A stretch of DNA of 33,019 bases from Arcicella sp. (GTDB taxonomy: Bacteria; Bacteroidota; Bacteroidia; Cytophagales; Spirosomataceae), in the NCBI GenBank assembly GCA_025454855.1, contig JALONS010000012.1:1-33019 (forward strand), read 5' to 3'. This document shows positions 5,508 to 5,573 of this stretch, piece by piece. Position 1 is the stretch's first letter. Each line of letters starts with the position of its first letter. Under the pieces are notes generated by a model. It did not search any database. It was not told the DNA's origin and saw only the letters and a list, made by a program, of their open reading frames with translations. Made by a program: the position numbers and the translations under genes.

Positions 5508-5539
5508 TTTGTCGAAAAAAGGTGATGGTTTATCGAAAA
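5508..5539 (+). promoter_or_regulatory. Putative LytTR operator A: TTTGTCGAAAA / TTTATCGAAAA direct repeats, 21-bp period
   Basis: TCG triplets at 5512 and 5533 (21 bp apart). Confidence 0.65.
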
Positions 5540-5565
5540 CGTAACATCGCCTTTGATAAGCCTGC

Positions 5566-5573
5566 TACATTTG
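5566..5573 (+). promoter_or_regulatory. -7 box TACATTTG downstream of operator A
   Basis: TAnnTTTG, 33 nt from the second TCG of operator A. Confidence 0.6.

Follow-up and report, generated by a model that had tools for sequence, protein, structure and literature searches.

Putative LytTR operators and a predicted three-promoter peptide regulon in an Arcicella genome

The sites bound by LytTR-domain regulators consist of two repeats of 9–11 nt, 11–13 nt apart, with no common consensus (PMC4847170), and the repeats usually lie 12 bp apart, just upstream of the −35 element (PMC6193735). Three candidate sites of this kind, A, B and C, are described here in a 33,019-nucleotide stretch of DNA from Arcicella sp. 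(assembly GCA_025454855.1, contig JALONS010000012.1, positions 1 to 33,019), referred to below as the window; it forms contig C76 in a genome of 5.39 Mb and 474 contigs. The probability that A, B and C are LytTR operators, most probably for the response regulator (RR) encoded at 3612–4328, and that they activate a regulon of three promoters, is put at about 0.88; all of the support is sequence-based. The sites are very probably genuine binding sites because one exact layout recurs in other members of the family beside a regulator of the LytTR class and genes for small modified peptides.

Of the known systems, the plantaricin (pln) regulon of Lactobacillus plantarum comes closest in layout: the sites of PlnC/PlnD are direct repeats of 9 bp, set 12 bp apart, that adjoin −35 directly on its upstream side (PMC2714321). 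As in pln, one repeat would serve several promoters, with a response regulator set over peptide genes and an exporter. The half-site, however, is TTnGTCGAA here and TACGTTAAT in pln, the promoter has a Bacteroidota −7 box, the kinase is of the LytS type (PF06580), and the peptides are of the ribosomally synthesized and post-translationally modified (RiPP) type, with a lanthipeptide-like leader or a radical SAM enzyme, in a Gram-negative organism. In addition, no second, repressor-type response regulator was seen within the window.

Other described systems have parts of this arrangement. In the Blp/gallocin system of Streptococcus gallolyticus, BlpH/BlpR, a LytTR regulator and a kinase likewise control small secreted peptides from promoters with a common conserved sequence, but the inducing peptide was shown experimentally there, whereas autoinduction here is a proposal from the genes alone (PMC8545106). 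YpdA/YpdB of Escherichia coli is also a LytS/LytTR pair, and YpdB recognizes a direct repeat, GGCATTTCAT, with a period of about two helical turns; its half-site and target differ, and it does not control a peptide regulon (PMC4847170). In LytTR regulatory systems such as HdrRM, the direct repeats are mostly 12 bp apart just upstream of −35, with the spacing kept and the sequence diverging; those regulators pair with a membrane inhibitor, whereas here there are a REC domain and a kinase, so the window does not encode a system of that class (PMC6193735). Finally, BGC5 of a Bacteroidales RiPP survey places a histidine kinase (HK) and a response regulator inside a predicted Bacteroidota RiPP cluster; unlike here, no operator or regulon was seen, and LytTR was unmentioned, in the part of the survey consulted (PMC10352776).

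Layout of the sites and scans of the host genome

Each site comprises two direct copies of the half-site TTnGTCGAA, separated by 12 bp and ending shortly before −33 (Table 1). Both hexamers are TCGAAA in all three sites (TCGAAA-N15-TCGAAA), the period is 21 bp, and the box begins 33 nt after the second TCG. These distances, and the coordinates of each TCG and box, had been given in an earlier, sequence-only reading of the window and are exact to the base. That reading had also described the −7 box as TAnnTTTG, which is true of A and C; B has CAAATTTG, and the form common to the three is NNNNTTTG. The layout (9-bp repeats, 12-bp spacer) fits the published LytTR geometry exactly, although the sequence differs, and the proposed likeness to LytTR paired direct repeats is thus borne out (PMC4847170, PMC6193735, PMC2714321). 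Among 2000 first-order-Markov random windows, none contained even one TCGAAA-N15-TCGAAA with a correctly placed TTTG; the window has three.

The host genome was searched with patterns of differing stringency, each against a reversed-pattern control. The expectation that the pattern would stand out genome-wide was upheld for the full operator only. With at most one mismatch, TTNGTCGAA-N12-TTNGTCKAA-N32-TTTG matches A, B and C and nothing else in the whole 5.4-Mb genome. With up to three mismatches there are nine matches vs four in the control; the six extra matches, all at three mismatches, are at about control level, and some may be genuine. One of them (C247) lies upstream of a gene whose 756-aa product is similar at its start to that of the TonB-receptor gene in the window, and another is at a contig edge (C257). 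Looser patterns occur at control frequency: the genome shows no excess of TCGAAA pairs of arbitrary spacing (51 vs 57) or of TCG-N18-TCG followed by TAnnTTTG without the remainder of the half-site (17 vs 19). About four of the eight TCGAAA-N15 matches in the genome belong to an intergenic repeat with a 7-bp period, so the 21-bp spacing alone is not evidence. The informative signal is the full half-site together with the exact geometry.

Conservation in relatives and the proposed promoter mechanism

Relatives are taken to include Arcicella aurantiaca, of the same genus, and Pseudarcicella and Spirosoma, of the same family (names inferred). The first regions were chosen by kinase similarity, blind to operator sites. 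Around kinase relatives with 54%, 45–48% and 38–39% identity the same TCG pairs are present, with TTTG at the identical distance except at two overlapping candidates in L167. No TCGA-pair site was found beside the orphan kinase of G001 (C1). A search of GTDB contigs with the kinase of the window returned only generic LytS kinases from other Bacteroidota. A wider set of loci came from searching the family with a PepB alignment, which was positive in 22 of 223 genomes and 9 of 36 genera.

When TCGA pairs followed by TTTG were tabulated by spacing in 35 loci, the cell for period 21 and offset 37 held 21 matches, which are not 21 independent events because a few of the loci are near-identical relatives; the next highest held four and the mean was 0.18. 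A position-matrix scan with fixed geometry gave 78 matches, compared with 3–10 in eight control geometries. In an out-of-sample test, a matrix trained on the six half-sites of the window alone was applied to loci of relatives fetched by protein similarity. It found 111 pairs at period 21 vs 22–66 at other periods, so that this period (two TTnGTCGAA, spacer 12) is favoured over every other tested, and TTTG follows at +37 after 30 of the period-21 pairs, against a mean of 0.85 for other offsets. Across the class, matches with at most one mismatch were few, occurring in 14 of 396 genomes, one tandem-repeat artefact included, with three matches in the control; the operator code therefore looks concentrated in this family.

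The sites also adjoin genes of the expected regulator class. The sequence-only reading had placed LytTR and LytS genes upstream of site A, and by Pfam they are indeed a REC-LytTR regulator, with both domains far above cutoff, and a LytS-type kinase; orthologues of the regulator adjoin the same operator in other genera. Comparison with PDB sequences gave mainly receiver domains and a ComE-type response regulator. In a sample of 20 family matches taken in list order on pattern alone, a LytTR gene lies within 1.7 kb of 13, and for 11 of the 13 it is within about 130 bp, these distances being approximate since they run to stop-to-stop frames. The chance expectation is a few per cent (44 LytTR domains per 5.4 Mb). 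Further operator matches agree on LytTR adjacency, some of them having been selected after a kinase was noticed nearby.

The −7 box of Bacteroidota housekeeping promoters, TAnnTTTG, occupies −12 to −5 (PMC9723704). The right half-site would therefore lie at about −49 to −41, with its centre near −45 by the predicted promoter position, and the left at −70 to −62. Because the 9-bp half-sites are direct repeats with a 12-bp spacer, two LytTR domains would bind the same face of the DNA, two helical turns apart. The bound dimer would probably act as an activator, recruiting the housekeeping RNA polymerase to a promoter with a poor or absent −33 element; activation is suggested because a dimer just upstream of a poor −33 is the usual activator arrangement. 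In relatives, a T-rich but weak element occupies +10 to +12 past the right TCG, where the −33 box would be expected; A, B and C themselves lack it. The sensor kinase and LytTR regulator would in this manner turn on peptide production and export through A, B and C.

One region (L161 and L162; G001:C20:77021-81564) has four tandem LytS-type kinase paralogues and one LytTR regulator, with the same operator after the last kinase. A second RR-HK-PepA unit with a stand-alone REC protein is found in the host genome of the window (L170:6850-9474; G000:C156), with its own peptide, MKNQLTQTLQSQKKIIAVLNGNKSTKHGMYGMTTSSGYC; its operator has diverged, the right half being AAGTCTAA, and similar half-sites occur at C247 and C426.

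The predicted regulon and possible peptide signalling

Three promoters are proposed: the first would serve PepA, the next PepB, the second GG-type peptide and the maturase of the radical SAM type, and the last the C39 exporter with its HlyD-type adaptor. The arrangement RR-HK-[operator]-PepA, PepB-radical SAM and C39 exporter, as predicted from sequence, recurs as a unit. Of the regulon anticipated by the sequence-only reading, the arms for the peptide and for peptide/radical SAM are conserved; the exporter arm is based on site C and on two relatives (L165 and L166) in which the exporter lies within the PepB operon, downstream of the operator.

Table 1. Candidate sites and associated genes in the window
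Feature	Position	Strand	Details
LytTR response regulator (REC + LytTR), proposed binder of A–C	3612..4328	+	PF00072 5.8e-18; PF04397 1.2e-18
LytS-type membrane histidine kinase	4387..5493	+	PF06580 3.1e-21; hydrophobic N-terminal segments; 54% identical orthologue in G007
Site A	5508..5573	+	Half-sites TTTGTCGAA 5508-5516, TTTATCGAA 5529-5537; TCGAAA at 5512, 5533; −7 box TACATTTG 5566-5573; predicted transcription start ~5578
PepA, 38-aa peptide, putative class I lanthipeptide-type leader	5646..5762	+	NF038153 18 bits (under the cutoff of 22); 15 further loci have a counterpart following RR/HK
Site B	5786..5851	+	Half-sites TTGGTCGAA 5786-5794, TTAGTCGAA 5807-5815; TCGAAA at 5790, 5811; −7 box CAAATTTG 5844-5851; predicted transcription start ~5856
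PepB, GG-leader peptide (RGGDKDYTPLY stretch)	5872..6075	+	Alignment; 22/223 family genomes; metagenome relatives of 67 aa
Second GG-type peptide, PepB operon	6089..6301	+	Homologues follow PepB in relatives
Radical SAM/SPASM peptide maturase, YhhB/FxsB-like (cyclophane-forming type)	6301..7434	+	NF041707 8e-104, below 445-bit equivalog cutoff
Site C	28583..28648	+	Half-sites TTCATCGAA 28583-28591, TTTGTCGAA 28604-28612; TCGAAA at 28587, 28608; −7 box TAGATTTG 28641-28648; predicted transcription start ~28653
C39 peptidase-containing ABC exporter	28945..31239	+	PF03412, PF00664, PF00005; homologues in PepB operon of L165, L166
HlyD-type adaptor of exporter	31514..32233	+	TIGR01843 1.3e-09

The first open reading frame (ORF) after most sites encodes a small peptide, commonly with its start codon 15–70 nt past the predicted transcription start. 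The genes downstream encode PepA, PepB, LanB, LanC, an acyl-carrier protein or an exporter, the sites before LanB or LanC genes being in relatives. The pattern of PepA is MKN..L.L.K.TI..L followed by a variable tail, often rich in Thr or Cys; two relatives score 14–15 bits against the leader model used in Table 1, and a full LanB adjoins PepA in L199 and L205. The conserved stretch of PepB is RGGDK.Y.P.Y, and equivalents of site B lie upstream of pepB in relatives. Translation of PepB probably begins at 5872, rather than at 5818 or 5854, because the predicted transcript starts near 5856 and the conserved start in relatives agrees. In G012, a putative Pseudarcicella (L271), one site precedes a clear homologue of the acyl-carrier-like protein encoded at 20108 in the window and so gives it an operator of its own; in that genome, this suggests, the same regulon takes in the lipid part of the biosynthetic cluster. 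At L163:9203-9571, PepA is followed by a stand-alone receiver-domain protein (PF00072 only), with similar proteins in L164–L167; in the window none follows PepA.

An extension of the proposed regulon would make it a closed loop, in which PepA, lanthipeptide-like, or PepB, a cyclophane-type GG peptide, is exported by the C39 system and is the ligand of the LytS-type kinase. This would be peptide quorum sensing, or autoinduction, in Bacteroidota, and is offered tentatively, as the less probable course. The synteny points towards it: in all 16 PepA loci, from several genera, the operator lies between the end of the RR/HK operon, 7–141 bp away, and PepA, so that a peptide gene is both adjacent to the kinase and under the putative operator of the regulator, as would be looked for in a peptide pheromone. 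Peptide, maturase and exporter genes would be under one operator, and in some loci a full LanB or LanC gene is under or beside it. The gene logic is also that of the plantaricin regulon, where one LytTR repeat is common to regulatory, transport and bacteriocin promoters (PMC2714321). Against this, the peptides could be plain products, such as antimicrobials, and the kinase could respond to a different signal.

The kinase itself also argues against the loop. Gram-positive peptide systems use AgrC/HPK10 kinases, whereas in a Pfam scan this kinase matched PF06580 (LytS-type) only and not the AgrC/HPK10 type. The operator-regulator-peptide circuit is possibly peptide signalling of a type known chiefly from Gram-positive bacteria. 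No Bacteroidota LytTR operator or peptide quorum-sensing system was found in the open-access papers searched, and the loop, if real, would be modified-peptide quorum sensing in a phylum for which those papers yielded none. The proposed operator code itself (TTnGTCGAA-N12-TTnGTCGAA, −7 TTTG at +37) concerns a regulator family that is among the largest in these bacteria. It would allow regulons to be read from sequence, flag peptide biosynthetic clusters together with their presumed switch, and make secreted-peptide signalling in Bacteroidota directly testable.

Alternative binders and neighbouring genes

Several observations weigh against assigning A, B and C to the regulator at 3612–4328 with a regulon of three promoters. 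There are 44 LytTR domains in the host genome, and sites of similar form appear to serve related LytTR proteins elsewhere in the family, so that one protein may bind the sites of another; binding, activation, the identity of the regulator among these 44 proteins and the signal of the kinase are what we infer. At least four of the 13 LytTR-adjacent sites in the pattern-only sample are orthologues of sites already found. The genomes of a single family are related, so counts overstate independence, though the sites recur in several genera with diverged flanks. Half-sites have diverged in some loci, to TCTAAA in L163 and TCGGAA in L159. Finally, about 290 nt separate site C from the start of the exporter gene downstream, which makes the target of this site less certain.

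It is accordingly conceivable, though unlikely, that the operator is genuine and is bound mainly by another LytTR regulator or is common to several, given the number of LytTR domains and the similar operators beside other LytTR genes in the family. This is countered by the genome scan, in which the sole matches at up to one mismatch all fall in one cluster, and by the fact that the arrangement travels across genera with the RR-HK type of 3612–5493. Very unlikely is a binder of a different class, such as the XRE-like protein (19726) or the LuxR-type regulator (32257); both genes are within the window, but the pattern-only sites of other genomes adjoin LytTR genes, and a direct-repeat layout of period 21 is of the LytTR type. 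An explanation of the three sites as chance occurrences or dispersed-repeat copies is scarcely credible: the genome does contain TCGAAA-rich intergenic repeats with a 7-bp period, some with 21-bp spacing, but A, B and C lack the heptad pattern and have nothing in common beyond half-sites and −7 box, conservation in relatives is confined to these positions, and both the out-of-sample matrix test and the LytTR adjacency of pattern-only sites contradict it. LytTR operators, most probably of the regulator encoded beside site A, thus remain the preferred reading.

The region between the PepB operon and site C includes a hybrid cluster (8417–24496) with genes for FabG, two ketosynthases, FabZ-like and acyltransferase-like proteins, an AMP ligase, a phosphopantetheinyl transferase, a thioesterase and an acyl carrier-like protein. 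It also encodes a LanB-type dehydratase (13648–16284), an M50 protease similar to daptide HExxH proteins, and an enzyme of the arginase family that might act on precursor arginines. This gene mix suggests a lipid-RiPP hybrid product. At 20528–21600, seven short ORFs stand in tandem, and their near-identical peptide products (LTIVELEDRFETTVAALDTARCGD...) resemble an array of RiPP precursors; three of these peptides were tested against NCBIfam, with no match. Between the C39 exporter and HlyD genes, at 31284–31500, there are imperfect tandem CTATTCTCTATTAAT/CAAC repeats.
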